From positions 1-20,187 of the IMG/VR virus record IMGVR_UViG_3300047322_001263: a stretch of DNA of 20,187 bases. The stretch is one strand, 5' to 3'. Origin of the DNA: a virus. Of the stretch, positions 718 to 17,942 are shown one piece after another. The position numbers and the translations under genes were made by a program. The notes beneath the pieces are model-generated. The model did not search any database and was not told the DNA's origin. It saw only the letters and a program-made list of their open reading frames with translations. The first letter of the stretch is position 1; every line of letters begins with the position of its first letter.

Positions 718-1143
718 TCAGGCTGCCTTCACGGACTGTTTGAATACTTCAAGACTGACGATCACTTCCTCAGCCTCCTTAAGCAGGCTCTTTTTTTCGA
801 CCGAGCAGACTCGCCCATCGGCCTGTGCATCGAACGCAAGTCGGGTGACGTCGGCAAGATCAGCATGCAGCCGCAGAAGCGCGGCGTTGAGATTGATGCC
901 TTCCGGCTTTTCCTTTGGAACCAGATCGAAACCGAAAGCCTCCGCCCATGCTGCAAGCGGACGAAAGTCTTGGGTGAACTTCATGATTCGGTGAAGTTCT
1001 TCCACGTTCATTCGGTGGCTGTCGTAGTCCGGGTTCGCCTTCTGGGAAAGCAACGTCCGTGATTTGAAGTCCGCGCCTTCGGCGATTTTCTTAGTGCCGT
1101 GATCATCAACCACGTCATAGATCGCCTTCATCAATGCCTGCAT
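718..1143 (-). CDS. Phage regulatory protein CII, CP76 family
   Basis: This 141-aa protein begins MQALMKAIYDVVDDHGTKKI. The pattern of the N-terminal half (a helix with the LxxAIYD motif, SRTLLSQKANPDYDSHRMNVEE, then IMKFTQDFRPLAAWAEAFG) matches the Phage_CP76 regulatory family (PF06892). Members act as CII-type activators or DNA-binding regulators in temperate phages of proteobacteria. The start follows GAGG at a spacing of 6. It lies downstream of cro in the presumed PR transcript. The cro-cII gap holds a small hairpin (CTCTGC/GCAGAG, 1172-1187) that could be a nut-type element. Its target promoter cannot be named from the sequence. Confidence 0.85.
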   Translation of the reverse strand: MQALMKAIYDVVDDHGTKKIAEGADFKSRTLLSQKANPDYDSHRMNVEELHRIMKFTQDFRPLAAWAEAFGFDLVPKEKPEGINLNAALLRLHADLADVTRLAFDAQADGRVCSVEKKSLLKEAEEVIVSLEVFKQSVKAA

Positions 1144-1227: not shown

Positions 1228-1428
1228 TCAGCTAGCTAAGCGCTGACTCTGCGAAGGAAATGCCCTCACCTCCTCTGCTGTACAAATCCCATTAGGGTGA
1301 GGCGTGACATAGATGTCACGGCCAATACGAATGGCTTTACTAATGGCGCCCTGCGTCATCCCCAACAGAGCGGCAGCCTCGCTCTGTCCGAGCCAGCGAG
1401 CAAAATCAGTGATGTGAATTCGGTTCAT
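1228..1428 (-). CDS. cro: Cro-type repressor
   Basis: This 66-aa protein beginning MNRIHITDFARWLGQSEAAA has a helix-turn-helix at residues about 15-37 (QSEAAALLGMTQGAISKAIR), typical of P22-like Cro proteins. It would compete with CI at the operators just upstream and shut down early transcription. The ATG at 1428 was chosen because Cro proteins start a few residues before the first helix and GAG precedes it by 9 nt. An in-frame ATG at 1458 would overlap operator DNA at 1460 almost completely and is unlikely. It is transcribed divergently from cI. Confidence 0.85.
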   Translation of the reverse strand: MNRIHITDFARWLGQSEAAALLGMTQGAISKAIRIGRDIYVTPHPNGICTAEEVRAFPSQSQRLAS

Positions 1429-1458: not shown

Positions 1459-1487
1459 ATATTACCTATGGCATTTTTAAAAGTAAA
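1459..1487 (-). promoter_or_regulatory. PR promoter (towards cro)
   Basis: Read on the minus strand, TTTACT (complement of 1482-1487) and TAATAT (complement of 1459-1464) are separated by 17 bp. Both hexamers match the sigma-70 consensus at four of six positions. Operators at 1460-1476 and 1485-1501 overlap the -10 and -35, so repressor binding there would block cro, the CII-like gene and the replication gene. Confidence 0.65.
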
Positions 1488-1524
1488 TGCCATTGGCATT
1501 TGGTGAGTATTACCGTAAGGAATA
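1460..1524. promoter_or_regulatory. Right operator: three CI/Cro sites
   Basis: Three 17-bp dyads lie at 1460-1476, 1485-1501 and 1508-1524, with starts 25 and 23 bp apart. The middle one, AAATGCCATTGGCATTT, is a perfect palindrome. The others use related half-sites (TATTACCT/AAATGCCA and TATTACCG/TATTCCTT). The arrangement between divergent cro and cI is that of lambda OR1-OR3. Confidence 0.75.
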
Positions 1525-1528
1525 AGAT
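1500..1528 (+). promoter_or_regulatory. Possible PRM promoter for cI
   Basis: TTGGTG (1500-1505) and TAAGAT (1523-1528) are 17 bp apart. The start point would fall at or next to the cI ATG at 1535, giving a leaderless mRNA as from lambda PRM. The operator at 1508-1524 lies between and over the hexamers and would repress it. Both hexamers are weak matches. Confidence 0.4.
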
Positions 1529-1534
1529 TCTGGG

Positions 1535-2272
1535 ATGACCAAAAAAGCACTCGATCCGTCCCGCAAAGCTGAATGCGAAAAACTCAAAGCGCTATTCACC
1601 TCAAAGAAGCACGCGCTGGGATTGACGCAGGAAAAGCTGGCCCACGCCCTGGAGATGAACCAGAGCTCAGTCAGTCATTACATGAACGGTGTGAATCCAC
1701 TGAATGCGCCTGTGGCGGCCGCGTTTGCCAAAATTTTGGGGATCGATGTTGCTGACTTCAGCCCTCGGCTTGCCAAGGAAATAGCCGACATGGCGAGCGG
1801 TGTTAGCATTTCTACGCCCCATGCATTCGATGCGAACGTAGAGCTAGCTACTGGACCAGCGCGTTATTACGAATATCCGGAGATTAGTTGGGTGCAGGCT
1901 GGAGTTGCGTGCGAGGCAATGGATCTGTTCAGTATTGGCGACTTCGAGGCGACTCATCCGTCAGATGCCTGGGCTGGACCGAATGGTTTTTGGCTCAAGG
2001 TTCGCGGCCCGTCGATGACCTCTACGAACGGTATGAGCTTCAGTGAGGGGATGATTATCCTTGTTGCACCAGGGAGTGACGTCGAAAGCGGGCAGTACGT
2101 GGTAGCAAAACTCATCGACACCAATGAAGCGACGTTCAAGCAGCTGGTTAGAGATTCCGGCAAAGCGTACTTGAAGCCATTGAACCCGGCTTTTCCTACA
2201 ATAGAAGTGGATAATACCTGGACGGTAGTGGGTCGAGTTGTTGACGCAAAATGGCCTAGATCAGTGCTGTAG
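1535..2272 (+). CDS. cI: CI-type prophage repressor (HTH + S24 autopeptidase)
   Basis: This 245-aa protein has a helix-turn-helix at residues about 29-52 (GLTQEKLAHALEMNQSSVSH) and a C-terminal S24/LexA-like peptidase. The Ala122-Gly123 pair in VQAGVA is the expected RecA-stimulated self-cleavage site. Ser160 (GPSM) and Lys192 (VVAKLID) are the expected catalytic dyad. It should hold the lysogenic state by binding the operators at 1460-1524 and 3026-3067, and the intact dyad predicts SOS induction. The only Shine-Dalgarno-like sequence, AAGGA at 1517-1521, is 13 nt from the ATG, unusually far, in keeping with a leaderless message from PRM. The first 20 residues form an extra N-terminal helix before the HTH. 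Confidence 0.93.
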   Translation: MTKKALDPSRKAECEKLKALFTSKKHALGLTQEKLAHALEMNQSSVSHYMNGVNPLNAPVAAAFAKILGIDVADFSPRLAKEIADMASGVSISTPHAFDANVELATGPARYYEYPEISWVQAGVACEAMDLFSIGDFEATHPSDAWAGPNGFWLKVRGPSMTSTNGMSFSEGMIILVAPGSDVESGQYVVAKLIDTNEATFKQLVRDSGKAYLKPLNPAFPTIEVDNTWTVVGRVVDAKWPRSVL

Positions 2273-2315
2273 AAGAACCAAAAATCGGATCACGATAAAG
2301 TAAAAAGGACTTTTC

Positions 2316-2966
2316 ATGAAAACTGTCTGGGCGTTCCTGTTTGCTGTTTTGGTGGCAGGAGGTGGTTGGTTCGGTTGGACTCAGTATAGGAGCAGCGAGG
2401 AGAGAGCACTCGCCATCGAAACGGTCCAAGTCTCTGTCACTCAAACAGAGCGCCAGCTAAAAGCCCGCAAAGAGAACGGGATCACATTTGGGGAATACCT
2501 CAAGAGTAGTGCAGCGGCAATAGAGCAGCTGGATGCCAGCATTTCAAAACTTGAAGCGCACTCTTGGCACTACCACCCTTCTGATCGAGATGTTGCAGTC
2601 AAGTTCTTGGAGCAATGCAAAGTTATCGTCCGGTCCGACCAGGCTGACACTCGCCTATTGATGGAAGCTGGTGATGCAAGGAAGCAGTTAGATCAGTCGC
2701 AAAAAGAGCTCAACGAAGCCGACACTCCGGAGGAGATCGACTGGAGACTAAAACGATACAGTCGAGCCTCTGATGAGCTAGTTGCGGTCATGCAAAAGCA
2801 AATCGAAGTCATCAAAGAAAGCATAGGCAAAATTGAGCAGCTCATTGCGGCTGATGACTCGGTGAAGCAAGCATTCGGAAAAGATCAAGGATTTGCAGAC
2901 ACCACGATCGCGTCGATGAAGAAATACATTGCGTCAGAACGGCCCAAGAAGGCTGACAATGGCTAG
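2316..2966 (+). CDS. Membrane-anchored coiled-coil protein, probable lysogenic gene
   Basis: This 216-aa protein is not recognised as any named family. Residues 1-22 form an N-terminal hydrophobic segment (MKTVWAFLFAVLVAGGGWFG) that could be an uncleaved anchor. The rest is hydrophilic, charged and helix-rich, with heptad-like stretches around residues 35-85 and 115-180, so it should sit in the periplasm on the inner membrane. AAAAGGAC precedes the ATG at a good distance. It follows cI by 43 bp on the same strand and ends at a terminator, so it is probably co-transcribed with the repressor in the lysogen. Genes in this position often affect superinfection or host fitness. That role is inference only. 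Confidence 0.8.
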   Translation: MKTVWAFLFAVLVAGGGWFGWTQYRSSEERALAIETVQVSVTQTERQLKARKENGITFGEYLKSSAAAIEQLDASISKLEAHSWHYHPSDRDVAVKFLEQCKVIVRSDQADTRLLMEAGDARKQLDQSQKELNEADTPEEIDWRLKRYSRASDELVAVMQKQIEVIKESIGKIEQLIAADDSVKQAFGKDQGFADTTIASMKKYIASERPKKADNG

Positions 2967-2984
2967 ATCATAAATCGCAGCAAG

Positions 2985-3008
2985 ACCCGCCAACGAGCGG
3001 GTTTTTTT
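2985..3008 (+). terminator. Rho-independent terminator after the cI operon
   Basis: ACCCGC (2985-2990), a 6-nt loop and GCGGGT (2997-3002) are followed by T residues to 3008. It closes the cI plus membrane-protein transcript and isolates it from the PL promoter that begins 30 bp later. Confidence 0.85.
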
Positions 3009-3025
3009 CTGCGCATCAAAAATAA

Positions 3026-3067
3026 TATTGCCATCGGTATTGACGATAAATAATGCCATCGGTATTG
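3026..3067. promoter_or_regulatory. Left operator: two CI sites over PL
   Basis: Two 17-bp dyads, TATTGCCATCGGTATTG (3026-3042) and TAATGCCATCGGTATTG (3051-3067), have starts 25 bp apart, the same interval as in the right operator. Half-sites (xAATGCCA or CAATACCG) match those near cI. The first touches the -35 and the second covers most of the -10 of the promoter at 3040-3068. Confidence 0.75.
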
Positions 3068-3068
3068 T
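3040..3068 (+). promoter_or_regulatory. PL promoter of the plus-strand early operon
   Basis: TTGACG (3040-3045) and TATTGT (3063-3068) are separated by exactly 17 bp. This is the strongest sigma-70 promoter seen in the window. It points into the long leader and the recombination operon that ends with the integrase, and it is embedded in the two left operators. Confidence 0.75.
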
Positions 3069-3075
3069 TTGTGCA

Positions 3076-3417
3076 TCGCAGCGACACACGGCCACTGCGA
3101 AGGGCCTCAACAGACCCGCCGCTCTTTAACAACCAGCGCCATGAACGACTACCCGGCCAGTCCGGTTAGGTCACTCCCGGCTCCATCGGTGGGAGGTCAG
3201 TAAACCGATGAACAAAACCGCACTTGCCTCTACCGGCGACCGGCGATCCGACAGGCCCGAAAGCCTGCCCACGCGCAGCCCACTGCGACGGCGGACGAGG
3301 TGTTGACCGAACTGAGTGAATGACCTGGTAAGCGGGTGCGGAGAAAAACAGATTTCACTGGCTGGCCTTGGCGACAGGGCCAGACGGGAAATCAACCGAT
3401 CAAGCACGGAGCATCAA
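3076..3417 (+). other. Structured PL leader with boxA, possible antitermination site
   Basis: This gene-free stretch begins near the PL start point. It has a perfect boxA, CGCTCTTTAACA, at 3120-3131, the NusB/S10 site also found in rrn leaders. Around it are hairpins: TCGCAG/CTGCGA (3076-3100), an imperfect GC-rich stem at 3147-3172, CATCGGT/ACCGATG (3184-3210), CAGGC/GCCTG (3252-3267) and CTGGCC/GGCCAG (3362-3383). A boxA plus stem-loops directly after PL suggests a nut-like or HK022 put-like element. No protein resembling lambda N, a short Arg-rich peptide, is seen in the operon. A reading frame open from 3316 into the next gene is judged non-coding before 3418. Confidence 0.55.
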
Positions 3418-4195
3418 ATGAGCGAACAAACACTTCAAGCGCTGCTCGCCGAGCGCGTCACTGCTTTCGCAAACAGCGACAAGCCAGTCGAAATCATCGA
3501 TGAGCATGTAAAGAAGATGTTCACCAGCGTGGTCGACAGTTGCTTCGGCCGTTATGGCGACATGGGCAAGCAGGTCGAAGAAGCAATCAAGGCCGCGCTG
3601 CCAGCCAATTTGACCGAAATCTTTGAGCTGACTCGCTACAACGCAATGATCGCTGCTGCTTTGAAGGAAAAGTGGGAAAACAGCGGCGTCGAAGCCGACA
3701 TGGTGCGTTTGGCGCAGAAACAGATCGACGAGGTGCTGAACAAAGATGCAATGCCGGAAATGATCAGCTTGCAGGCGCTACTGGAGGCCTTCGTCGAAGA
3801 CCACAAAGAGTCAGCAGCCGAAGAGCACTGGGAAGCTCCAGACATCCGCTTCCAGCCATCCGACTACGGTGGCATGCACATCTACTTCGACAAGAAACCA
3901 AAGGATCACGGGATTTCAACTTATTCCCGAAGCTCAGAGCGCAGCGAATACATGCTCGACAACGCGATCCACATCAGCTTCGACCGTTACGGGAAGGATC
4001 GAAACGAACAGGGTCATGAGGTCGGATCGGTGTATGCCGCGAAAATCGACAACGAGAAGATCAGCCAAACCCTGAAATTCCGCTCTCCATTCGAAAAGAT
4101 GGTTGCTGCACTTTACTTCGGTAAATCCAAAATCATCGTCGATTGCGATGAGGATGATTTCAGCTACGGCATCTACGACTGAACAACCAGCGCCA
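3128..4195. repeat. 14-bp direct repeat flanking the first PL gene
   Basis: AACAACCAGCGCCA occurs exactly at 3128-3141, overlapping the end of boxA, and at 4182-4195, overlapping the stop codon of the 3418-4182 gene. Each copy is followed within a few bases by a hairpin (3147-3172; ACGACAG/CTGTCGT at 4195-4210). It may record a duplication of leader sequence or be a recurring antitermination linker. Confidence 0.55.
3418..4182 (+). CDS. Hypothetical phage early protein (254 aa)
   Basis: This is the first gene of the PL operon. The ATG at 3418 has GGAG 6 nt upstream; the frame is open further back but those codons lie in the structured leader. The protein is acidic and helix-rich in its first 140 residues. 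A mixed part follows with many aromatic residues (DYGGMHIYFDKKP, SYGIYD) and ends in an acidic CDEDDFSYGIYD tail. I recognise no family. The position directly after PL is where lambda has N, but the size and composition do not fit an RNA-binding antiterminator. It may instead be an early anti-host or anti-restriction protein. Confidence 0.8.
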   Translation: MSEQTLQALLAERVTAFANSDKPVEIIDEHVKKMFTSVVDSCFGRYGDMGKQVEEAIKAALPANLTEIFELTRYNAMIAAALKEKWENSGVEADMVRLAQKQIDEVLNKDAMPEMISLQALLEAFVEDHKESAAEEHWEAPDIRFQPSDYGGMHIYFDKKPKDHGISTYSRSSERSEYMLDNAIHISFDRYGKDRNEQGHEVGSVYAAKIDNEKISQTLKFRSPFEKMVAALYFGKSKIIVDCDEDDFSYGIYD

Positions 4196-4237
4196 CGACA
4201 GCCCTGTCGTTAACTGCCCGATCCTCTCTATGAGAGC

Positions 4238-4354
4238 GCATCGGGGTGTGATCTGAGGCTAAGACTCGGGCAGCGGATGAGCCAACCGGTCGCCTATAGG
4301 GCTACCCCTTCCGCCGAATGCCGATTGAGCCCCGGCCAGATCACACCCCGATGC
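4238..4354. ncRNA. Candidate structured RNA with an 18-bp perfect closing stem
   Basis: GCATCGGGGTGTGATCTG (4238-4255) and its exact complement (4337-4354) enclose 81 nt. Those bases pair further: CTC/GAG (4265-4267 with 4327-4329), GGCA/TGCC (4269-4272 with 4319-4322), GCGG/CCGC (4273-4276 with 4311-4314) and AGCC/GGCT (4280-4283 with 4300-4303). The result is a long rod with bulges. No reading frame explains it. It lies in the 206-bp gap between the first PL gene and a convergent minus-strand gene. It is not a simple terminator, since no T tract follows on either strand. Strand and function are unknown. Confidence 0.5.
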
Positions 4355-4388
4355 GGACGAAACTGCGGCCTATAACCGCCCACCTGCA

Positions 4389-4769
4389 TCAAGTCGTACG
4401 CGCGTTAATCCGCGATTCAGTATTTCGGGTCTTGACCAGCAACCATGTGGAGCTGATCAGGCAAAGAACGATCACAGTAATCGACAGTGGCAAGTGAAAC
4501 AGGTGGGAGCCGGCAACAGCGAAGCCGGTGTGAATGACGAACGTCAGCACTCCTAGAACAGCACAAATTTTGGCGTACAAAAAAGCACTGCTCGTACCAA
4601 GCAAAACATGCCGATAACCAATCAACAAAAAGGGAACGGCCACGGCATTGAAAAGGAGAAAACCCTGTATTCCGCCGGGCACATAGAGCATCTCCCATTC
4701 GCGCCAAAAGGCCGCATCTATCTGATGTAGGACCAGAAAAAGAGTCGTCAAAAAGTAGCTTCTTTCCAT
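4389..4769 (-). CDS. Four-TM membrane protein, DUF6713-like
   Basis: This 126-aa protein begins MERSYFLTTLFLVLHQIDAA and has four hydrophobic segments at about residues 3-17, 34-53, 60-84 and 92-112. The HQIDAAFWREWEML motif followed by PGGIQ and an LFN segment resembles the DUF6713 membrane family, whose function is not known. GAGG lies about 10 nt before the ATG. A possible promoter -10, TATGAT, is on the minus strand at 4823-4828. It is the first of eight minus-strand genes set against the plus-strand PL operon, so it is probably cargo expressed independently of PL. Confidence 0.72.
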   Translation of the reverse strand: MERSYFLTTLFLVLHQIDAAFWREWEMLYVPGGIQGFLLFNAVAVPFLLIGYRHVLLGTSSAFLYAKICAVLGVLTFVIHTGFAVAGSHLFHLPLSITVIVLCLISSTWLLVKTRNTESRINARTT

Positions 4770-8684: not shown

Positions 8685-9341
8685 TCATCTTGGAACCTTC
8701 CTTGCGCGACAAAACCTCAGCAAGCCTGTGTCATTAATCACGATGGGCGAAATAGTTCCTGAAAACATTGGTATCCAAATCGCTCTTAACTCAACCTGCC
8801 TGATGAATTCAGGCTCTTTGATCAGTGCAGGATGAACTCCCCAGTTTCTACCATTCCAGTCCTCGTGGCGCTTCATGTATTGGACTTGGGACAGAGTAAG
8901 AAACTGCACTGGAACTATGGAGTTCAGGGTTTCAGTCAAGCGCCGATAAAAGCCTGCCAAGTCAGAAATTTCAACGCAGGAATCAGCACCATCAAACTGC
9001 CTTAAGACGTCGGATGAATATTTCACTGAAGTGCAATGAACAAAACAGTCAGGGTGATCGAATTCTTGAGAGACGGAAATGTTTTCAAGAACGACGTTTG
9101 TTGCGCCACCTAAATCGATTGCCCTGAACTTCTTTAACGCCTCCAGATGAATACTTCCAACATCCTTGTCTGTCGCGTGCGGGATGTAGTGAGAGACTCG
9201 CTTTTTCCCCTCATTGACGTCTGCTATCCCCTGTTTGTGCTCAGTTCTTCGGAAGTCGTGGAGAGTACCAATTCTGACGTTTCCGAGAGCTAGCAAAGCA
9301 TCGTTGTATTTCTTGCCTGAGTACCTAAACGCAGACGGCAT
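8685..9341 (-). CDS. Minus-strand accessory protein of unknown function (218 aa)
   Basis: It starts MPSAFRYSGKKYNDALLALG after AGGAGAG and is visibly richer in A+T than the phage genes around it. RIGTLHDFRRTEHKQGIADVNEGKK near the N-terminus recalls the opening of DUF2971-like proteins, where an N-terminal Tyr/Lys element is followed by a conserved acidic motif, but I cannot confirm this. There are no membrane segments. It sits convergent to the gene on its left and divergent from the one on its right. An independently expressed cargo gene, for example in phage exclusion, is a reasonable guess but unproven. Confidence 0.75.
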   Translation of the reverse strand: MPSAFRYSGKKYNDALLALGNVRIGTLHDFRRTEHKQGIADVNEGKKRVSHYIPHATDKDVGSIHLEALKKFRAIDLGGATNVVLENISVSQEFDHPDCFVHCTSVKYSSDVLRQFDGADSCVEISDLAGFYRRLTETLNSIVPVQFLTLSQVQYMKRHEDWNGRNWGVHPALIKEPEFIRQVELRAIWIPMFSGTISPIVINDTGLLRFCRARKVPR

Positions 9342-9446
9342 GTAACTCTCCTGGTTCCGGCTCCATGCCGGTCACCCGTAATACCCCAACCCAAACCAAA
9401 TTGCCACCACCGGTCACGGAGGGCGGCGCCTGACTGGAGATAATCC

Positions 9447-9848
9447 ATGGATCACAACTGCGCATACGTCCGGCAGCACTATCAGGTGCCCGCCGAAATA
9501 GGCCGCCGCGTTATCGCCTACGGAAAGCCCGGCGTCATCTTGGCAGACCGCGGCCATTACATCGGCGTGGTGCTGGACGAAGACCCGAAGAAGCGAATCG
9601 GCAATTACCACCCTACCCACGAAATGCAGTATGGCGAGATGGCCGAGACGCTACCGCTAAAAGAGTGGCTGGTCTTGCCGTTCAAGCATGACTGGGACGA
9701 TCTCGACTGGAACCGCGAGGCCCGCGAAGATCTGGTCAGGGTGTGGGCAGCAACTCGAAGTCAAGCCAAATACAAAGCATACGAGCGGCTTCAGGATTAC
9801 TGCCACAGCATCAAGGCGATGCTGCATTTCAAGGTCCGGCGAGCCTGA
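9447..9848 (+). CDS. Hypothetical phage protein (133 aa)
   Basis: It begins MDHNCAYVRQHYQVPAEIGR after GGAG at a spacing of 8. The first 50 residues look like a small beta-barrel (GRRVIAYGKPGVILADRGHYIGVVLDEDPKKRIGNYHP). The remainder is charged and helical and includes WLVLPFKHDWDDLDW. No family is recognised. It resumes the plus-strand operon between two minus-strand cargo genes. Confidence 0.75.
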   Translation: MDHNCAYVRQHYQVPAEIGRRVIAYGKPGVILADRGHYIGVVLDEDPKKRIGNYHPTHEMQYGEMAETLPLKEWLVLPFKHDWDDLDWNREAREDLVRVWAATRSQAKYKAYERLQDYCHSIKAMLHFKVRRA

Positions 9849-9881
9849 TCCGTCGTAATTAGTTGCGTCAGATCAAACTCT

Positions 9882-10625
9882 TCAGCGCAGGCTTATGCCG
9901 ATGTCACAACCATGCATGCCTACCGCTGAAAAAGCACTCCAGTTCTTTCCATCAGTGGATATCCGCAGAGCACTTTCGTCGCCACTTAAGAAATAACCTT
10001 CAAATAGCATATCGATTCTTTCAATAGCGATTGCATGCGGAGGTAATGTCCGCACCTGCAGAGCAATGTCCGCAGGACCACGACGAATTGTTATTAAAGG
10101 CCCGACAACCTCCACATCCCAATTGTCGTCACCGGCTGACCATACGTTGTCAATGATCTTCAGTGTCGTTGCGCCTGTTGTATCCGCAAGAAATCCCGAT
10201 AGTCGAACCGGTGCACCAAGCTCTTCGGGAGGCTGGACAGATAACAGGTCGACTCCATGGATCTGAATTAGAACTTTACAATCAACAAAGCTGACACCGG
10301 CAAATCGAACTTCAATAGGACCAGGGCCAAAATCAAATAACTCTGAGGCAAACCCTTGCTGCTTGCACGCAGGGTTATCGTTTGCTCTGGCAACAGTTGC
10401 GGCCGATAGAGTTCCACGCGCTCGCTTTTGATTGCACTGCATGCAAAGCAGAGTCATCCCGGCTGGATTGTGCTCCTTCGCATCCTTGAAGTCTGGATCG
10501 AAGTGCTCGTAATCATAGTAAGCCAGGCCGCATATCACACAGCCGAACCCGCAACGAGCGCGGATTTCACGACGGACATCCTGTGGCACGTACCGGCCAA
10601 GTCCATGCTGGTTTCGCTCTGCCAT
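9882..10625 (-). CDS. HNH endonuclease with a C-terminal beta-rich domain
   Basis: The start MAERNQHGLGRYVPQDVRRE (ATG at 10625) is preferred. The frame extends back to 10769, but those codons overlap the leader and start of the divergent gene. Residues 25-70 hold an HNH fold: CVIC (29-32), DYEH (38-41), EHN (51-53) and CMQC-N (61-65), so two CxxC pairs bind zinc and His41 is a candidate catalytic residue. Residues about 85-247 are beta-rich with no known match. This domain could recognise a ligand or partner. The minus orientation inside the PL operon suggests lysogen-expressed cargo, perhaps a defence nuclease. A homing-type nuclease is the main alternative. Confidence 0.82.
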   Translation of the reverse strand: MAERNQHGLGRYVPQDVRREIRARCGFGCVICGLAYYDYEHFDPDFKDAKEHNPAGMTLLCMQCNQKRARGTLSAATVARANDNPACKQQGFASELFDFGPGPIEVRFAGVSFVDCKVLIQIHGVDLLSVQPPEELGAPVRLSGFLADTTGATTLKIIDNVWSAGDDNWDVEVVGPLITIRRGPADIALQVRTLPPHAIAIERIDMLFEGYFLSGDESALRISTDGKNWSAFSAVGMHGCDIGISLR

Positions 10626-10685
10626 TGCTTTCTCTCGAATGTGTCCAGCCCATAGCGGGCCGAACACAAATACCCCACTTCTACG

Positions 10686-11498
10686 AATCACTCCAGCCGG
10701 CGAGGTCAACATGAAACCCAACGAATACGTTGAGGCCCTGGTGGCCTCTGGCGCGCTTTTTGTCGCCAATCATTCAGGCGGCAAGGATTCCCAGGCCCAG
10801 CTCATCAAGCTGCTTGAGGTTGTGCCAGCCCGCCAGATACTTGTGGTCCACGCCTCGCTCGGGGCGATGGAATGGCCGGGGGCTCTTGAGCTAGCCCGCA
10901 ATCAGGCCGCCGCCGGCCTGCCTTTCATCGTTGCCACCGCCACCAAGACCCTTCTCGAAATGGTAGAGCGCCGCTTTGAAGGCCGCCCCGAGGTTCCTAG
11001 CTGGCCGTCGGCTTCGACCCGCCAATGCACCAGCGACCTCAAGCGCGGCCCGATCCAGCGCGAGGTGCGCCGTTACGCCAAGGCCAACGGCTACAAGGTG
11101 ATCGTTAACTGCCTGGGATTGCGCGCCCAAGAGTCGCCAGGGCGGGCCAAGCGAAAGGAGTTCAGCCAGATGGGGATCAGCAATAGCGTGAACACCTGGT
11201 TCGAGTGGCTGCCCGTTCACGGGCTGTCCACCGCCGAGATATTCGACATTATCGAGCAGGCAGGCCAGAAGCCGCACTACGCCTATGCGCTGGGCAACGA
11301 TCGGTTGAGCTGCGTGTTCTGCATCATCGCCAGCAAGAAAGACCTTGCCACGGGTGCCGCGCATAACCCTAGCCTGCTGGAGCAGTACGACGCCCTTGAG
11401 AAGCGCACCGGCTACACCATGCACATGAGCCGCATTCCCCTAGTCGAACTGGCGGCCTAACCCTTCCCAATAACAACCAATCACGCCAGCCGGCGAGG
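10686..11498. repeat. 20-bp direct repeat flanking the PAPS-reductase-like gene
   Basis: AATCACTCCAGCCGGCGAGG (10686-10705) contains the ribosome-binding site of the PAPS-reductase-like gene. A copy with one mismatch lies at 11479-11498, just after that gene, but has no start codon behind it. The second copy looks like the leader of a lost plus-strand gene, next to the minus-strand gene 11516-12184. Confidence 0.8.
10711..11460 (+). CDS. Phage PAPS-reductase-like PP-loop protein
   Basis: This 249-aa protein starts MKPNEYVEALVASG after GAGG. The PP-loop SGGKDS at residues 22-27 binds ATP or PAPS-like nucleotide. LGLRAQES (135-142) and RQCTSDLK (104-111) are typical of the phage and DndC-like branch of the phosphoadenosine phosphosulfate reductase family (PF01507). 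Cys106 with Cys201 and Cys204 (SCVFC) could hold an iron-sulfur cluster. The C-terminal ECGLH of true sulfate-assimilation CysH is absent. The substrate is unknown; sulfur transfer to a nucleic acid or another ATP-dependent modification are possibilities. It lies upstream of the cytosine methyltransferase. Confidence 0.85.
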   Translation: MKPNEYVEALVASGALFVANHSGGKDSQAQLIKLLEVVPARQILVVHASLGAMEWPGALELARNQAAAGLPFIVATATKTLLEMVERRFEGRPEVPSWPSASTRQCTSDLKRGPIQREVRRYAKANGYKVIVNCLGLRAQESPGRAKRKEFSQMGISNSVNTWFEWLPVHGLSTAEIFDIIEQAGQKPHYAYALGNDRLSCVFCIIASKKDLATGAAHNPSLLEQYDALEKRTGYTMHMSRIPLVELAA

Positions 11499-11508
11499 AT
11501 TAGTTGCC

Positions 11509-11537
11509 GGCCCACTTAATAAGGAATTAAGTGGGCC
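11509..11537. other. 12-bp perfect stem-loop at the end of a minus-strand gene
   Basis: GGCCCACTTAAT (11509-11520) pairs with ATTAAGTGGGCC (11526-11537) around a 5-nt loop. It overlaps the stop codon of the 11516-12184 gene and stands between two convergent genes, so it may end or protect transcripts. Neither strand has a clear T tract after it. Confidence 0.6.
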
Positions 11538-12184
11538 CGTAAGTGATTATCGACATCACGCAGAGCTTGCATCATCTCGACCCAGTAAACGTCATCGGCA
11601 CTGTCCAAATCATAAAGAACATTCCTGCGCTGCTCTAAAAGCTGCTGCCGGGAGAGTGCCCCCTGTACTGTCTGAACAGGCGCTATGGACATCAGATAAA
11701 GCCGAACATAGATCACAAACTCACGCTCAAGCTTGAAAACATGCTCCATGAGCCCTTTAAAATCGCCCCCCCAGATCGCCTCCGCCTCAAGCATAGTGGC
11801 TTGAAGCGGGTTTCGAGCATTGTCCATGGCTGTCAAACGGCGACGGTAGGCTCGAGCAGTATGGTCATAGCTAGCTTGTTGCTGGTCATCCGAGACAACC
11901 TCGCCTTCAAAGGGTATCCCTTCAAACGAAAAAATCGCGGGTGATCTCGCTCTCTGTATTTCATCTCGAAGTTTATAGAGCTCGATAAGCAAACGGCGTG
12001 CTAGATCATGATCGGCAGATCCTCTGAGCTGCTTTCTCCATGTGTGAAGACCGGCTCGACCGAAGTAAATCGCTACCCCAATAGTAGCTGCGCTGATTAC
12101 TGCGCCGACCACAGTGCCGACAATGGAAAAGACGTCCTTCGTGAGCGACCAGTCTGCATCGGTCAGCGCCAAGCAAATAGACAA
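11516..12184 (-). CDS. Minus-strand single-TM protein of unknown function (222 aa)
   Basis: A TTG start at 12184 follows AAGGGG at a spacing of 7; no ATG occurs before residue 120. One transmembrane segment lies at about residues 17-40 (VFSIVGTVVGAVISAATIGV). It is followed by GLHTWRKQLRG...LARRLLIELYKLRDEI, a combination seen in many bacterial unknowns with a single N-terminal anchor and a cytoplasmic helical domain. The rest is helix-rich. Being monocistronic and opposed to the operon, it fits the cargo pattern. Confidence 0.75.
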   Translation of the reverse strand: MSICLALTDADWSLTKDVFSIVGTVVGAVISAATIGVAIYFGRAGLHTWRKQLRGSADHDLARRLLIELYKLRDEIQRARSPAIFSFEGIPFEGEVVSDDQQQASYDHTARAYRRRLTAMDNARNPLQATMLEAEAIWGGDFKGLMEHVFKLEREFVIYVRLYLMSIAPVQTVQGALSRQQLLEQRRNVLYDLDSADDVYWVEMMQALRDVDNHLRAHLIPY

Positions 12185-12233
12185 TTTAAAACCCCTTTTC
12201 TAAGTCGCAAGACTATAGCCGCGAGATTTCCTT

Positions 12234-13157
12234 ATGCCCACAGCAATCGATTTGTTCGCCGGCCTCGGCGGATGGTCATCTGGTGCCCGCAACGCAGGCA
12301 TCGACGTTATCTGGGCCGCCAACCACTGGCCGGTCGCCGTAGAATGGCACAGCGCCAATCACCCAGAAGCGATACACGTCTGCCAGGACTTGCACCAAGC
12401 GGATTGGTCGAAGGTTCCAGCCCACGACATCATGCTGGCTTCCCCATGCTGCCAAGGCCATTCAAAAGCTCGCGGCAAGAAGTCAGGCAACGCTCAGCAC
12501 GATGCCTCGCGCTCGACAGCTTGGGCGGTCGTGTCTGCCGCCGAATTCCACAGGCCAGAAATCGTGCTGGTCGAGAACGTCGAAGAGTTCACCGACTGGG
12601 CGCTGTACCCGGCTTGGTCTCAGGCCATGGCTGCGCTTGGCTACATGATTGCGCCACATGTCGTCGATTGCGCAGACCTCGGTGTGCCGCAGCACCGCGT
12701 GCGCCTGTTCCTGGTGTGCACCCGCAGCAAGGCCCCGCTGATGCTCGAGCTGCACCGACGCCAGCACGTACCGGCCGCCAGCTTCCTCCAGTTCGACTCC
12801 GGCCGCTGGTCTCCAATCGAGAAGCCCGGACGGGCGCAAGCAACTCTCGACCGGGTGCGTAACGGTCGTGAGCGCTTCGGTGATCAATTCATCATGCCCT
12901 ACTACGGCAATGGCTCCGGCCTGACCGGTCGAGACATCAACCGGCCTATCGGCACTATTACAACGCTGGACCGCTGGGCGCTGGTTCGCGGCAATGAGAT
13001 GCGGATGCTTTCGGCGAATGAGGCGCTTGCCGCCATGTCGTTCCCCATAGATACCCTGCGTCCAGACAACCATCGACTGACCATGCACATGGCTGGCAAT
13101 GCGGTACCGCCTCTGGCTGGTCAGCGTGTTATCGAGGCACTTCTGAAAACTGCCTGA
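12234..13157 (+). CDS. Orphan C5-cytosine DNA methyltransferase
   Basis: This 307-aa protein has the ordered m5C-MTase motifs: I DLFAGLGGWSSG (6-17), IV SPCCQGHS (70-77) with the catalytic Cys just before Gln, VI VENVEEF (113-119), VIII QHRVR (153-157) and X GNAVPP (288-293). It transfers a methyl group from S-adenosylmethionine to cytosine in a short DNA site. The usual PPCQ is PCCQ here, leaving two adjacent cysteines. The target-recognition region between motifs VIII and X is short. No restriction enzyme gene adjoins it, so it probably protects phage DNA from host restriction. The target sequence cannot be told. Confidence 0.93.
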   Translation: MPTAIDLFAGLGGWSSGARNAGIDVIWAANHWPVAVEWHSANHPEAIHVCQDLHQADWSKVPAHDIMLASPCCQGHSKARGKKSGNAQHDASRSTAWAVVSAAEFHRPEIVLVENVEEFTDWALYPAWSQAMAALGYMIAPHVVDCADLGVPQHRVRLFLVCTRSKAPLMLELHRRQHVPAASFLQFDSGRWSPIEKPGRAQATLDRVRNGRERFGDQFIMPYYGNGSGLTGRDINRPIGTITTLDRWALVRGNEMRMLSANEALAAMSFPIDTLRPDNHRLTMHMAGNAVPPLAGQRVIEALLKTA

Positions 13158-13643
13158 TTAATTAAAGCGCTCAAGCTCCCGGAAGGTCATGAGGTCGGAA
13201 TAGGTACTGCTGAACCAGCCTAACGTTCGACGGACGTGATCAATCGGGCGGGAAAACTTTTCACGAAAATCGGCGATATCTAGCGCTTCTTCGACGGTGA
13301 AGGTCGATAGAAAATTGTCTGTTTCCGCCACCAGCACTTCCGGCTGGGGGTAACCCTTTTCCCTGAATTGGCTACCGGTGATATCGATCATGAAGCTATC
13401 CAGTTGGAGCCAAACATGCGAACCAAGCTCTTCGTTGTCACCGCCAGACTCCCCTTGAACCCGCAAAGCGCCAGGATGGCCGTTATCGGCTAGGAAAGCT
13501 GCAAGTAGCAGAGACGCGTCGTCGCAAGATCCTCTCGGAAAATCCTTACCTAATGAGCACTGAGTATCAAGTCCGTTATCGATAGCGCCTTTGAGTATCG
13601 CTCGAAACTCCGTAGCCAATTGCTCCAACCGCTCTTTGCTCAT
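13158..13643 (-). CDS. Transglutaminase/cysteine-peptidase-like protein (161 aa)
   Basis: The gene starts MSKERLEQLATEFRAILKGA after GGAGAG, the same kind of site used by the 8685-9341 cargo gene. Residues GSCDDASLLL (38-47), SHVWLQL (75-81) and IDITGSQF (86-93) place Cys40, His76 and Asp87 in the order of a transglutaminase-like catalytic triad. Such folds act as peptidases, deamidases or amide-forming enzymes. No secretion signal is present, so it should act in the cytoplasm. It abuts the methyltransferase stop codon in convergent orientation. The triad is seen; the activity is inferred. Confidence 0.78.
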   Translation of the reverse strand: MSKERLEQLATEFRAILKGAIDNGLDTQCSLGKDFPRGSCDDASLLLAAFLADNGHPGALRVQGESGGDNEELGSHVWLQLDSFMIDITGSQFREKGYPQPEVLVAETDNFLSTFTVEEALDIADFREKFSRPIDHVRRTLGWFSSTYSDLMTFRELERFN

Positions 13644-13689
13644 TTAACTCTCCTTGCAAAACTGACAAATGTACAACCAAGGTGTCCAC

Positions 13690-14085
13690 ATGCCCACAGA
13701 AAACAAACCGTCCGAGCCGCTGCCGGCACTGGCGACAGGCGCCGAGATAAAGCGCTATCCTGACCGTCTGTGCCATATCGACTACACGGCACACCCATAT
13801 CGCTGCGGGTGCTTGAGCGGCGACGATGAGACGCAGCGGCGTTTTGACGAATACCAACGCGGCGCCAAGCTGGCGAAAGCTGAGAGTGAGGTTCTGCGAC
13901 TCACCACCGAGCGTGACGCCCTGCAGCAGCGCCTGAACGCAGCGGATCAGCGGATTGATGAGCTGACCGCCAAGCCATCCGATGCCGAGCGCGATCGCCT
14001 GCGGGCAATCATCGAGAAATACCCGAACGGCGATCCGCTCGAATATGACGCCGCCGTTCGCGCCATCCGCCAAAAGTCGAAGTAA
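13690..14085 (+). CDS. Hypothetical phage coiled-coil protein (131 aa)
   Basis: The start MPTENKPSEPLPALATGAEI at 13690 follows AAGGTG; an ATG seven codons earlier is less well placed. Residues about 20-40 contain CHIDYTAHPYRCGCL, a possible metal-binding knuckle. Residues about 55-105 form a coiled coil (KAESEVLRLTTERDALQQRL). The end (RDRLRAIIEKYPNGDPLEYD) is common in small phage proteins. No function is known. Confidence 0.75.
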   Translation: MPTENKPSEPLPALATGAEIKRYPDRLCHIDYTAHPYRCGCLSGDDETQRRFDEYQRGAKLAKAESEVLRLTTERDALQQRLNAADQRIDELTAKPSDAERDRLRAIIEKYPNGDPLEYDAAVRAIRQKSK

Positions 14086-14462
14086 CTCTCTCCCCCTTCA
14101 AAATCAGAAGAAGAGCGAGAGGAATCTAACATTGAAGAAAATGATGATGAGCGCCGTCAACAAGCCAGGTGAGCGCATTACACCAAGCAGGATGTAGAGA
14201 AAGGGACTCACCAGGCCGATCATAAAAAGAGCCCAAGCGGCCATTCTTAAAGGAGCCGGATCAAAAAACGCCCAGATAGTTAGCCCGAGCCAAATAGCCA
14301 AAAAAAAATACATCGTCACGCCATCAACCCGGAAAAACGCCCGCTTGAACGTGTGTCCTACTTTATCTGACTCGTTGAGCATCTGGGCCACCGCTATAAC
14401 CGATTCATATCGATAGTAGCCGTAGCTTCAAAAACCTCTACTCCCTCCCCCTTCAAAGTCAG
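14086..14462. repeat. 22-bp direct repeats bracketing a minus-strand cargo gene
   Basis: The pyrimidine-rich sequence at 14086-14107, directly after the stop of the preceding plus-strand gene, recurs at 14441-14462 just before the leader of the next plus-strand gene. The two copies agree at 20 of 22 positions and share the core TCCCCCTTCAAA. Between them lies only the minus-strand membrane gene. Deleting one repeat and the interval would restore a compact plus-strand operon. Confidence 0.8.
14104..14382 (-). CDS. Minus-strand three-TM membrane protein (92 aa)
   Basis: The ATG at 14382 has GGTGG 5 nt upstream; a GTG three codons earlier (14391) is an alternative. There are three hydrophobic segments at about residues 21-38 (MYFFLAIWLGLTIWAFF), 45-63 (MAAWALFMIGLVSPFLYIL) and 70-88. 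The stop region lies inside the left copy of the direct repeat. No family is recognised. Like the other minus-strand genes it is alone in its orientation, which suggests its own promoter. Confidence 0.7.
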   Translation of the reverse strand: MLNESDKVGHTFKRAFFRVDGVTMYFFLAIWLGLTIWAFFDPAPLRMAAWALFMIGLVSPFLYILLGVMRSPGLLTALIIIFFNVRFLSLFF

Positions 14463-14487
14463 CCGCTATAGCGGCAAGGACGAAGTC

Positions 14488-14817
14488 ATGCCTGAAGAAA
14501 TCAAATTGATCCAACCAGCTCCGGTCGTTCGCGATGAGGACGGTATGTTTCAGCATCCCGACCTGCCCGACTTCGATGAAGGTGACGGAGATAAGCGCAA
14601 GGCCTGGATCATCGAGCAGGGCCTGCAGGTGAAAATGGTCGAGCTCGAATACCACAGCGACCAAACAGTCTCTGACCGTTACTTCGACGCGGGCGATTCG
14701 GATTGCAGCTACTGGGATCCGGATAAGCCTGAAGGCGAAGGCTGGTTCTGCCTCTCAATTCACGACACTGACAATGGCCCGGTCTGCTGGTGGGCATGCC
14801 GCGAGGTGGCGCCATGA
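14488..14817 (+). CDS. Hypothetical acidic phage protein (109 aa)
   Basis: It starts MPEEIKLIQPAPVVRDEDGM after AAGGA at a spacing of 8; a perfect 14-bp palindrome, GCCGCTATAGCGGC (14462-14475), stands just before. The protein is strongly acidic, with Trp-rich segments near the end (GWFCLSIHDTDNGPVCWWAC). No family is recognised. Its stop overlaps the start of a truncated downstream gene by ATGA. Confidence 0.75.
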   Translation: MPEEIKLIQPAPVVRDEDGMFQHPDLPDFDEGDGDKRKAWIIEQGLQVKMVELEYHSDQTVSDRYFDAGDSDCSYWDPDKPEGEGWFCLSIHDTDNGPVCWWACREVAP

Positions 14818-14942
14818 CCGTAATCAAAGAACGGCCGATCCTGTTCTCGGCCCGGATGGTGCGCGCCTTTCTGGATGGCAGGAAGAGGATCAACCCGGTA
14901 AATCAGCACAAAGCTGACCAACCTTTACATAGACCACTTTAA
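14814..14942 (+). pseudogene. Truncated phage ASCH-type gene remnant (42 codons)
   Basis: An ATGA overlap with the previous gene opens a frame that begins MTVIKERPILFSARMVRAFL. This N-terminus is that of a common phage protein of about 150-200 aa, often annotated with an ASCH domain and normally continuing with GRKTQTRR. Here the match ends after DGRK (near 14886), and unrelated residues lead to a stop at 14942. The remainder of the gene is missing, and the AT-richer minus-strand cassette follows. Family assignment is from memory of the N-terminal motif. Confidence 0.55.
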
Positions 14943-15016
14943 TGGACCGGCTAGGACATTAGCAATCTAAGCATAGGACAACGTTGGAATCTACCGCCTG
15001 AGAAAATCCAAGAAGC

Positions 15017-15472
15017 TTACTCATCCTGAGTAGCAGCGGTTTTTTTCCTGTTCGTGGCTTTTGTTGCCGGTTTCCTGAGGGGAGACTGCTTCATATTTGA
15101 TCCGCTCAGGGACTTATTAACATTATCAAATGCAGACTCTAGAGCGTTGAACCTTAACTGATTTCTATGAGCCACAATTTGTTCGCGCTGAGTTTCATTG
15201 AGACTATTATCAGCAAGCATCTTGTCGCAATGGACAATAAAATCTTTTACGGAAAAATCCGACTTAAAAAGCCTCCACTTGACCACTAACAAGTCTTCTA
15301 GCTCTCCCGAAATTGATGAGATCAGGAGAGTCAATGCCGGGATAAAATATACAAGTAGTTTTGTCAACGAGTCCGCTTCTGCTCGGTTAACAAAAAACAC
15401 CATTACCGAACCGATTGCAGCTGCAAATAGAGCAGAGAATCGACCATTAGGAAGTGAGAGATCTTTATCCAC
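15017..15472 (-). CDS. Two-TM membrane protein of a cargo gene pair (151 aa)
   Basis: A GTG at 15472 starts two nucleotides after the stop of the upstream gene, so the two are translationally coupled. There are two hydrophobic segments at about residues 13-29 (ALFAAAIGSVMVFFV) and 39-57 (LLVYFIPALTLLISSI). A cytoplasmic helical region follows, then a basic tail (SPLRKPATKATNRKKTAA). It is clearly richer in A+T than the phage core. No family is recognised. A membrane protein paired with a soluble partner on the opposite strand of a prophage is a layout seen in phage-exclusion systems, but nothing in the sequence proves that role. Confidence 0.72.
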   Translation of the reverse strand: MDKDLSLPNGRFSALFAAAIGSVMVFFVNRAEADSLTKLLVYFIPALTLLISSISGELEDLLVVKWRLFKSDFSVKDFIVHCDKMLADNSLNETQREQIVAHRNQLRFNALESAFDNVNKSLSGSNMKQSPLRKPATKATNRKKTAATQDE

Positions 15473-15474
15473 TG

Positions 15475-15972
15475 TTACACCGATTCAGGAAATTTTTTTG
15501 TGGCATCCTTGAATGCGTAAGTAACGGCTGAAACTGCATACTCAATAAAACTTCTGCATTCGTCTAGCCCGGTATCAAAGCCTTCGCACGCCAAAACTAT
15601 AGCTCCATCCTCGTAATAGCACTTCACCAATTTGAACTCAGCATTAACGTAACGCTCCACCGCTACCTGCTTGTCTAGCGATATAGAATCATCTACTCCA
15701 ACGCGTAAACTGATACCTACAAATCGTGCATCACTGCCTTCGCGAGTCAGAAAATACATAAAGCCACTTGGCCCATAGAAGTAGATGGAGTCGTCCTCTT
15801 TATCATCCACTTTATAACCAAGTGACTCGCAAAGCTCTACGTATCTTTCGATACCATATTCTGAAGACTTTTTCTTTGGGTTCACTTTCACAAAACATCC
15901 TTTCAAATAATCTAGCCAGCGAATCGGAACACCATCGCAGCCAAGGTAAAAGCTAATCATGTCAGTAAACAC
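15475..15972 (-). CDS. Soluble partner of the cargo gene pair, possibly YbjN-like (165 aa)
   Basis: The GTG at 15972 has GGA 8 nt before it; ATG at 15960 (MISFYLGCDGVPIRW) is an alternative start. There are no membrane segments. The C-terminal half, AVERYVNAEFKLVKCYYEDGAIVLACEGFDTGL followed by a helix, has the strand-turn-strand-helix order of YbjN/type III chaperone-like folds. That is a pattern impression only. It is the first gene of a two-gene unit with 15017-15472, and AT-rich like it. It would be transcribed from a promoter in 15973-16050, where no clear hexamers were found. Confidence 0.72.
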   Translation of the reverse strand: MFTDMISFYLGCDGVPIRWLDYLKGCFVKVNPKKKSSEYGIERYVELCESLGYKVDDKEDDSIYFYGPSGFMYFLTREGSDARFVGISLRVGVDDSISLDKQVAVERYVNAEFKLVKCYYEDGAIVLACEGFDTGLDECRSFIEYAVSAVTYAFKDATKKFPESV

Positions 15973-16892: not shown

Positions 16893-17942
16893 ATGCGCCC
16901 CCGCAAGGCCGACACACGCAACTTGCCGCCTCGGATGTACCAGTGGACACGAACACGAAAAAGCGGAAAGGTTTGGATCGCCTATTACTACTTGGATATG
17001 ACAGGCAAGGCGATCCCGCTGGGCAAGGATCTGGACTTGGCCAGGGTCAAATGGGCGGAGCTGGAGGCGAAGGAAAAGCCGCTTGATCTGCGAACCATGA
17101 AAGGCATCTTCGACCGATATATCCGCGACATCGTATCGAAGAAAGCGGCACGGACGCAGAAGGACAATTTGGCGGAGATCAAGCAGCTTCGGCCGATGTT
17201 CGACAGCGCTCCCATCGACTCAATCACCCCAGCAACTATCGCGGGGTACCGCGACGCGCGGTCCGCCAAGGTTCGGGCGAATCGCGAGATTGCCACCCTC
17301 TCCCACGTTTTCAACATTGCTCGAGAATGGGGGCTGACGACCAAAGAAAATCCCTGCCAAGGCGTGCGAAAAAACAAGGAAACACCGAGGGACTATTACG
17401 CAAATGATGTGGTTTGGGATGCTGTTTACATGAAGGCAGCTCAAGAGCTGAAAGACGCGATGGACTTGGCCTATCTGACCGGGCAAAGACCGGCAGATGT
17501 CCTGGTCATGAGGAAGGACGATGTCGAGGGAAATTACTTGGGTGTGCAGCAGAATAAGACACACAAGAAGCTGCGTATCCAGATGACTGACGGTGATGAG
17601 CCAAACAGTCTGGGCCTGTTGATCGGGAAAATGGCCGAGCGCAATGCTCAGCACATTTGCAGCTATTTGATCGTGAGCGCACGCGGCAAGCGGATGACCG
17701 CGAAGATGCTTCGCGATCGATGGGACGACGCCAGAGAAAGGGCCAAGAAAGAAGCTGAAGAAAAAGGCGATGTTCAGTTGGCTGAGAAAATCGGAGGCTT
17801 CCAGTTCAGAGACATCAGGCCGAAAGCGGCGTCGGAAATCCTCGACGTCGGCGATGCGAGCCTACTCTTGGGGCACACCAAAGGAGACATTACCGAGCGC
17901 GTCTACCGACGAATTGGCGCCATTGCCAAGCCATCAAAATAA
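16893..17942 (+). CDS. int: Tyrosine-type site-specific integrase
   Basis: The 349-aa protein has an N-terminal arm-binding region (about 1-60, with VWIAYYYLDMTGKAIPLGKD), a core-binding domain (about 65-160) and a catalytic domain. Arg199 (TGQRPAD), Lys222 (NKTHKK), Arg309 (RDIRPKA), His328 (LLGHTKG) and Tyr338 (RVYRR) are the expected active-site residues. The usual His of the HxxR box is Arg306. The gene is coupled to the DUF4224 gene and ends about 125 bp from attR. It would join phage attP to the tRNA-Ser 3' end. Expression is mainly from PL. Confidence 0.95.
   Translation: MRPRKADTRNLPPRMYQWTRTRKSGKVWIAYYYLDMTGKAIPLGKDLDLARVKWAELEAKEKPLDLRTMKGIFDRYIRDIVSKKAARTQKDNLAEIKQLRPMFDSAPIDSITPATIAGYRDARSAKVRANREIATLSHVFNIAREWGLTTKENPCQGVRKNKETPRDYYANDVVWDAVYMKAAQELKDAMDLAYLTGQRPADVLVMRKDDVEGNYLGVQQNKTHKKLRIQMTDGDEPNSLGLLIGKMAERNAQHICSYLIVSARGKRMTAKMLRDRWDDARERAKKEAEEKGDVQLAEKIGGFQFRDIRPKAASEILDVGDASLLLGHTKGDITERVYRRIGAIAKPSK

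Follow-up and report, generated by a model that had tools for sequence, protein, structure and literature searches.

The viral record analysed here, a stretch of 20,187 bases referred to as the window, raises the question of whether the operator-like dyads between its cro and cI genes and those over a promoter 1.5 kb away belong to one lambda-type immunity circuit, and of what is carried by the transcript that starts at the second promoter, PL. Relatives of the window are mostly Pseudomonas phages and prophages.

The genes at this locus are readily assigned by homology. The cro gene (1228..1428, minus strand) encodes 66 aa with a Pfam Cro match (E=2.9e-20) and 45% identity to lambda Cro; an ATG start at 1428 is favoured over a TTG at 1458. 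Divergent from it, cI (1535..2272, plus strand) encodes a repressor in which Pfam recognizes an HTH domain and a Peptidase_S24 domain. The repressor shares 43% identity with its lambda counterpart (alignment A4), and the two C-terminal domains align well. The residues that we take to read the operator in lambda CI, Gln44, Ser45, Asn55 and a Lys-Lys pair in the arm, are kept, as is the Ala-Gly pair that is presumably the cleavage point. A CII-like regulator of the Phage_CP76 type lies on the minus strand at 718..1143 (PF06892, E=1.5e-24). Beyond it, at 106-223, TCGGA-N7-CCGA occurs five times at intervals of 22-35 bp, a possible phage replication origin; in lambda, the origin lies within the O gene.

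Between cI and PL there is one further plus-strand gene (2316..2966). The N-terminus of its product reads as hydrophobic, and searches of Pfam and PHROG gave no match at E 0.001. The first gene after PL (3418..4182, plus strand) belongs to phrog_2600, a family with no assigned function (E=1.4e-63). It is followed at 4183-4390 by a conserved non-coding element in which GCATCGGGGTGTGATCTG and its complement form a long stem; blastn matched some part of this element in 109 of 255 loci, most of these 109 having been collected on account of the leader or of CI. The PL side is long and ends in int (16893-17942). Several minus-strand ORFs, possibly accessory genes, lie among the plus-strand ORFs of the interval between (8685-15972), and because of them PL transcription might need antitermination.

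Operators and promoters

As read from the sequence, PR occupies 1459..1487 on the minus strand, with a -35 box TTTACT (1487-1482), a 17-bp spacer and a -10 box TAATAT (1464-1459). PL (3040..3068, plus strand) has the form TTGACG-17-TATTGT and was found by a promoter scan together with reading of the sequence. Both -10 boxes are poor. Matches to the sigma-70 consensus were no more numerous than chance would give (1 found, 1.5 expected), and scoring against this consensus was therefore dropped as evidence. An intrinsic terminator (2982..3005, plus strand) stands ahead of the PL operators, with its run of seven T residues partly inside the stem; it was missed by a pattern-based scan and detected by direct folding (-13.1 kcal/mol, z -3.85).

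Five operators are predicted. O1 (ATTACCTATGGCATT, 1461-1475, or 1460-1476 as a 17-mer) overlaps the -10 box of PR, and four of its seven arm positions match. O2 (AATGCCATTGGCATT, 1486-1500) overlaps the -35 box and is a perfect 7-1-7 dyad, with all seven arm positions matching. O3 (ATTACCGTAAGGAAT, 1509-1523) adjoins cI, matches at four of seven positions and fits the consensus poorly. On the PL side, the upstream operator (ATTGCCATCGGTATT, 3027-3041; four of seven) runs into the -35 box, and the second (AATGCCATCGGTATT, 3052-3066; five of seven) lies across the spacer and the -10 box. Judged by these arm matches, only 1486-1500 is a strong palindrome. Operators are 15-17 bp long, and the half-sites of four dyads are of the AATGCC/ATTGCC/ATTACC/AATACC type.

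The original prediction held that three dyads resembling AATGCCA, at 25-bp intervals, lie between cro and cI. This is borne out for O1 and O2, which are exactly 25 bp apart (1461/1486). The third dyad departs from it, being 23 bp from O2 and not matching the consensus within two mismatches. The two dyads of the same class that had been predicted 1.5 kb away are where a second promoter lies, at 3027-3066, and are again exactly 25 bp apart (3027/3052). O3 nevertheless has a recurrent form of its own, as the pattern ATTAC(C/T)...GGAAT is present 23-24 bp from O2 in all nine loci examined, the window and eight relatives. The O3 17-mer (TATTACCGTAAGGAATA, 1508-1524) is also identical at 14 of 17 positions to lambda OR3 (TATCACCGCAAGGGATA), although its orientation relative to cI is opposite to that of OR3, so that the likeness may be convergence.

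A search of the whole window for the shared motif, which the original prediction had proposed, gives three matches to AATRCCRNYGGYATT with at most one mismatch; 300 dinucleotide shuffles gave a mean of 0.037 and a maximum of 1. Two sites with at most two mismatches and 25 bp apart occurred in none of the 300 shuffles. Since the consensus was drawn from the very sites under test, these comparisons flatter the sites, and the independent test is provided by the relatives. The OR and PL regions are furthermore related as an inverted repeat of 45 nt, identical at 34 positions (best of 300 shuffles, 30), within which PR and PL align with each other. Each promoter thus has one operator in its spacer and -10 region and one at its -35 box.

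The motif search returned one more site, at 1324-1338 inside cro, with two mismatches. It is also found in L014, L015 and L031, and in L015 the best-scoring site of the OR side is the one inside cro. As a sixth operator, it was set aside, being located in coding sequence and absent from L016, L017, L063 and L064.

Operator class and the DNA-binding domain of CI

Sixty-two relatives were fetched by similarity of CI. Seven have the HTH of the window and 55 another HTH, the latter including near-duplicates and short stretches such as L032 and L060 that contain almost nothing beyond cI. The OR pair at 25 bp is kept in all seven same-HTH loci, and the PL pair at 25 bp in all six that cover the PL side (L014, L015, L016, L017, L063 and L064). 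The CI of L014 is identical to that of the window, but in L063 and L064 the operators are kept though the C-terminal domain of CI is unrelated to the window's. The other-HTH loci present the converse: they share the C-terminal domain, yet only one of the 55, L024, has even a near-match in place, with two mismatches. The inverted-repeat test was near null for most of these loci, with clear exceptions in L018, L019, L020, L024 and L043.

The association can also be used to predict. L137, the stretch around the leader-bearing locus L123, was chosen through the PL operators of L123 alone, and its CI has the recognition helix NQSSVSHYLNG, as predicted; its OR sites are of the window's class and 25 bp apart. 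L179, marked beforehand by its PL operators, likewise encodes the predicted helix. L239, whose operators and CI were first seen together, agrees.

A wider comparison is offered by loci that have the PL leader described below. A CI-like ORF was recognized in 46 of 155 such loci, the other 109 having none that was covered by the stretch or recognized. For 34 of the 46, kept by hand, operator similarity correlates with the N-terminal domain of CI (Mantel r 0.38, reached by 0 of 2000 permutations) more than with the C-terminal domain (r 0.13, 5 of 2000). The 34 omit duplicates (L002, L058, L074, L104), ORFs without a recognizable repressor (L141, L145, L186, L207, L221, L234) and two loci, L069 and L177, that are repressor-like. 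Inclusion of L069 and L177 gives 0.36 and 0.11 for the N- and C-terminal domains, and all 46 loci give 0.37 and 0.07. Without the window's operator class, the contrast is smaller (0.27 and 0.18). Pairs of loci whose C-terminal domains are similar and whose N-terminal domains differ agree on average at 7.9 of 15 operator positions (39 pairs), no more than the 8.0 of 15 for all pairs with different N-terminal domains (502 pairs), whereas similar N-terminal and different C-terminal domains go with 12.9 of 15 (8 pairs, with values of 8-15; the window's class takes part in four). The two clusters of a locus also agree: in 27 of 30 testable leader loci, the region before cI outscores all control windows for a site of the PL class. 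The match failed in L005, L026 and L180, and the remaining four of the 34 loci (L164, L243, L249 and L241) have no OR region in their stretch.

These comparisons suggest that the operators and the DNA-binding domain of CI form an exchangeable cassette that has moved together in related viruses. They also give good support to the prediction that CI would control PR, PRM and PL, as operator class follows the DNA-binding domain, the helices could be foretold and the OR and PL classes match. They bear equally on two other explanations of the sites. In one, the shared half-sites reflect chance or a generic similarity of promoters; both regions are AT-rich with sigma-70-like promoters and the tested consensus came from the sites themselves, but the shuffle controls, the contrast between same-HTH and swapped-HTH loci, the two successful helix predictions and the 27 of 30 class matches make it next to inconceivable, and as far as sequence allows it already appears refuted. 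In the other, CI has its targets elsewhere, and the sites are chiefly there for Cro or for a different phage regulator. A lambda-type Cro is indeed present, and Cro usually shares its operators with CI. Operator class follows the DNA-binding domain of CI, however, also in loci whose CI is otherwise unrelated, and we consider this explanation very improbable.

With CI as the likely ligand, the sites would work as in lambda. CI would bind O1 and O2 over PR, O3 over the likely PRM beside the cI start, and the two PL sites. In a lysogen it would shut off PR and PL and regulate its own gene through O3. By homology, Cro is expected at the same sites in competition with CI, and CI is expected to be cleaved in the SOS response. 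The two clusters of sites, the lambda-like CI and Cro, the pattern among relatives and the helix predictions together point to a lambda-type immunity circuit that is ordinary in kind. We regard it as highly probable that the window carries a lambda-family immunity switch in which an exchangeable cassette of operators and CI domain precedes a shared PL leader, with antitermination by that leader as an inference.

Whether the two clusters would also act together is a separate matter. Looping between OR and PL over 1.5 kb, raised in the original prediction, is possible but speculative. Lambda CI loops DNA over about 2.4 kb, and the window CI resembles it in overall identity and in a C-terminal domain that aligns well. 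On the other hand, CI might bind each cluster independently, without looping or long-range cooperativity, and the 1.5-kb separation would then be functionless. Only two sites on the PL side match the consensus within two mismatches, and among relatives the OR-PL distance ranges from about 0.96 to 1.57 kb with no sign of a selected spacing. We place this second possibility only just below an even chance.

A structured leader on the PL transcript

Downstream of PL, on the plus strand, the leader has an element at 3121..3131, GCTCTTTAACA, that we take to be a boxA and that is the sole exact match in the window. It is followed at 3212..3342 by a structured RNA domain of 131 nt with seven helices closed by P1, which covariance model R2 matches at 131.7 bits, the window itself being in the model. 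A MAFFT alignment of 22 loci (A3) supports 33 pairs in the seven helices, and 13 of these show compensation. Pairing holds in 97.1% of cells, against 20-37% in slid controls, and the covariation score is 0.331, against 0.149 for shuffled alignments. Further pair types were not above shuffles, 201 of 500 reaching the count. A3 is a better test of covariation than A6, which was fitted to the model; the counts from A6 and the model search of viral contigs cover 80 of at least 119 loci fetched by a core pattern. Folded as a single sequence, the leader as a whole does not stand out in energy (z -1.29), and no Rfam 15 family matched the leader, either at the gathering threshold or at E up to 1.

The domain recurs in Pseudomonas: R2 matches 54 of 398 genomes of the genus and, among the matches listed for the 17-base core pattern, 76 of 80 viral contigs. 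An order-wide search returned one genome of 293, the Pseudomonas centre itself, under strict filters that weak copies may escape. Among 67 sources comprising the window, CI-based loci and phages, there were 13 matches, so that the domain is frequent without being general. L015 alone among the six same-HTH loci with a PL side has it; L014, L016, L017, L063 and L064 give no match, so the circuit does not need the leader.

A second conserved structure, a hairpin at 3346..3400 on the plus strand (model R1, 73.1 bits, window in the model), precedes the first PL gene. It covaries strongly, with GC, CG and AU exchanges; eight of its 14 pairs are compensated, and its folding energy has z -6.22. Members of this hairpin family also precede the start codons of a variety of other phage genes; one lies upstream of orf68 in D3 (44733-44786), and some loci have at least two copies. 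On the PR-side strand, they are found at 805-857 in L012 and 5329-5381 in L013.

What the leader does is suggested by its surroundings. The exact GCTCTTTAACA lies upstream of 57 of 72 distinct viral leader copies but in none of 3066 length-matched control windows, and its core CTCTTT upstream of 67 of the 72, against 153 of the 3066. (The 72 derive from the 76 matches by leaving out three too near a contig end and one duplicate.) Given the boxA, the position of the leader and the length of the PL side, with int at its end, we prefer antitermination: most likely, the boxA and the 131-nt RNA, common to many repressor specificities, would alter RNA polymerase as it enters the long PL operon. The boxA association counts against the proposal that the leader instead acts in translation or mRNA stability, or gives rise to a small RNA made from PL. 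So, more weakly, does the diversity of the first ORFs after the leader, of which 33 from 40 loci fall into 25 clusters (five of the 40 loci have no core match and two no ORF); several of these ORFs have their called start within the leader itself and are probably wrong calls. In favour of the proposal, the second hairpin precedes start codons of different genes, and R2 has a single match in the window, on the PL side, with no second copy. We hold this alternative to be somewhat less probable than antitermination, though a serious contender.

The variety of operators in front of the leader is considerable. Roughly 19-30 classes of paired operators precede it (118 of 125 loci, at a pair score of at least 18 and without a shuffle control). 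The score rewards a -35 box and only intervals of 23-26 bp were admitted, so that the range of spacings is imposed, and some clusters, such as those of L125 and L214, are likely mis-calls. Read from the sequences, the first dyad often runs into TTGAC and the second lies over the -10 box. In a stricter test on the window and L106-L135 (L125 and L127 giving no usable row), the operator pair exceeded all 60 shuffles in 15 of 29 leader loci; with only this number passing, single cases need care.

The broadest reading is that temperate Pseudomonas phages share a hitherto undescribed family of PL-leader RNAs, consisting of a boxA and a multi-helix domain of about 131 nt and acting as a processive antiterminator, with an exchangeable cassette of CI domain, OR and PL before it in the 19-30 or so classes now visible. 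We would give this reading an even chance. As a new structured RNA family, placed where the main early operon of Pseudomonas phages begins, the leader is a strong candidate. Its model is also a means of collecting many natural repressor-operator pairs from raw sequence, and with such pairs the code by which lambda-type repressors recognize DNA, and the way in which phage immunity evolves, become testable over many specificities.

Comparison with known systems

The leader has partial parallels in lambda and HK022. The put element of HK022 is a cis-acting structured RNA just downstream of PL (PMC9378689). What defines a put element is suppression of termination without a phage protein. It is about 70 nt long with two stem-loops and is present at both PL and PR, whereas the window leader has 131 nt and seven helices, is preceded by a boxA and is confined to the PL side.

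Nut sites carry a short boxB hairpin. Lambda nut has its boxA early in the PL transcript, as does the window, but in place of nutL with its short boxB the window has a large multi-helix domain of 131 nt. No counterpart of nutR was found, as the PR (minus) strand of the window has no boxA within two mismatches. The lack of a leader copy on the PR side sets the window apart from both lambda and HK022. In the open PMC subset, including the available parts of PMC7326022, PMC10305613 and PMC9378689, we found no description of the leader, which does not prove that none exists.

Circuits of this kind are already known in Pseudomonas, from D3 and YA3; for the combination of circuit and conserved leader, the open PMC subset yielded no description. 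The Pseudomonas phage LKA5, a Hollowayvirus, is close to the window in recognition helix and operator class. Its CI has the same recognition helix as the window (QSSVSHYLNGVNPLN) with a different C-terminal domain, and its operators are of the window's class with one or two mismatches, 25 bp apart in OR and 26 bp apart at PL. It has the hairpin family (R1), but no R2 match and, in the stretch examined, no exact boxA. In YA3, cI, cro, PR, PRM, PL and a gene between cI and PL have been likened to those of lambda and D3, a likeness by description, and the available part of that account mentions no leader RNA (PMC7326022). The D3 record, compared by its annotation, has three putative repressor sites 24 bp apart in the gap between cI and cro.

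Lambda itself (NC_001416) has the same plan, with divergent cro and cI, three operators between them, one or more accessory genes after cI and the PL operators beyond. Spacings within OR are alike too, 24 and 23 for lambda against 25 and 23 for the window. Among the differences, two PL operators were found in the window, against three in lambda, and the half-site is AATGCC/ATTACC instead of TATCACC. The gene after cI is without a family, unlike that of lambda, and the CII-like regulator is of the Phage_CP76 type and not of the lambda CII family. CII varies among lambdoid phages, and the CP76 type is therefore no bar to a lambda-type assignment. The window has the features that mark a lambda-type switch: a CI with HTH and S24 domains, a divergent Cro, three OR operators some 23-25 bp apart and a PL cluster of the same class. 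Its circuit thus joins the best-understood of gene switches, which is reassuring more than surprising.
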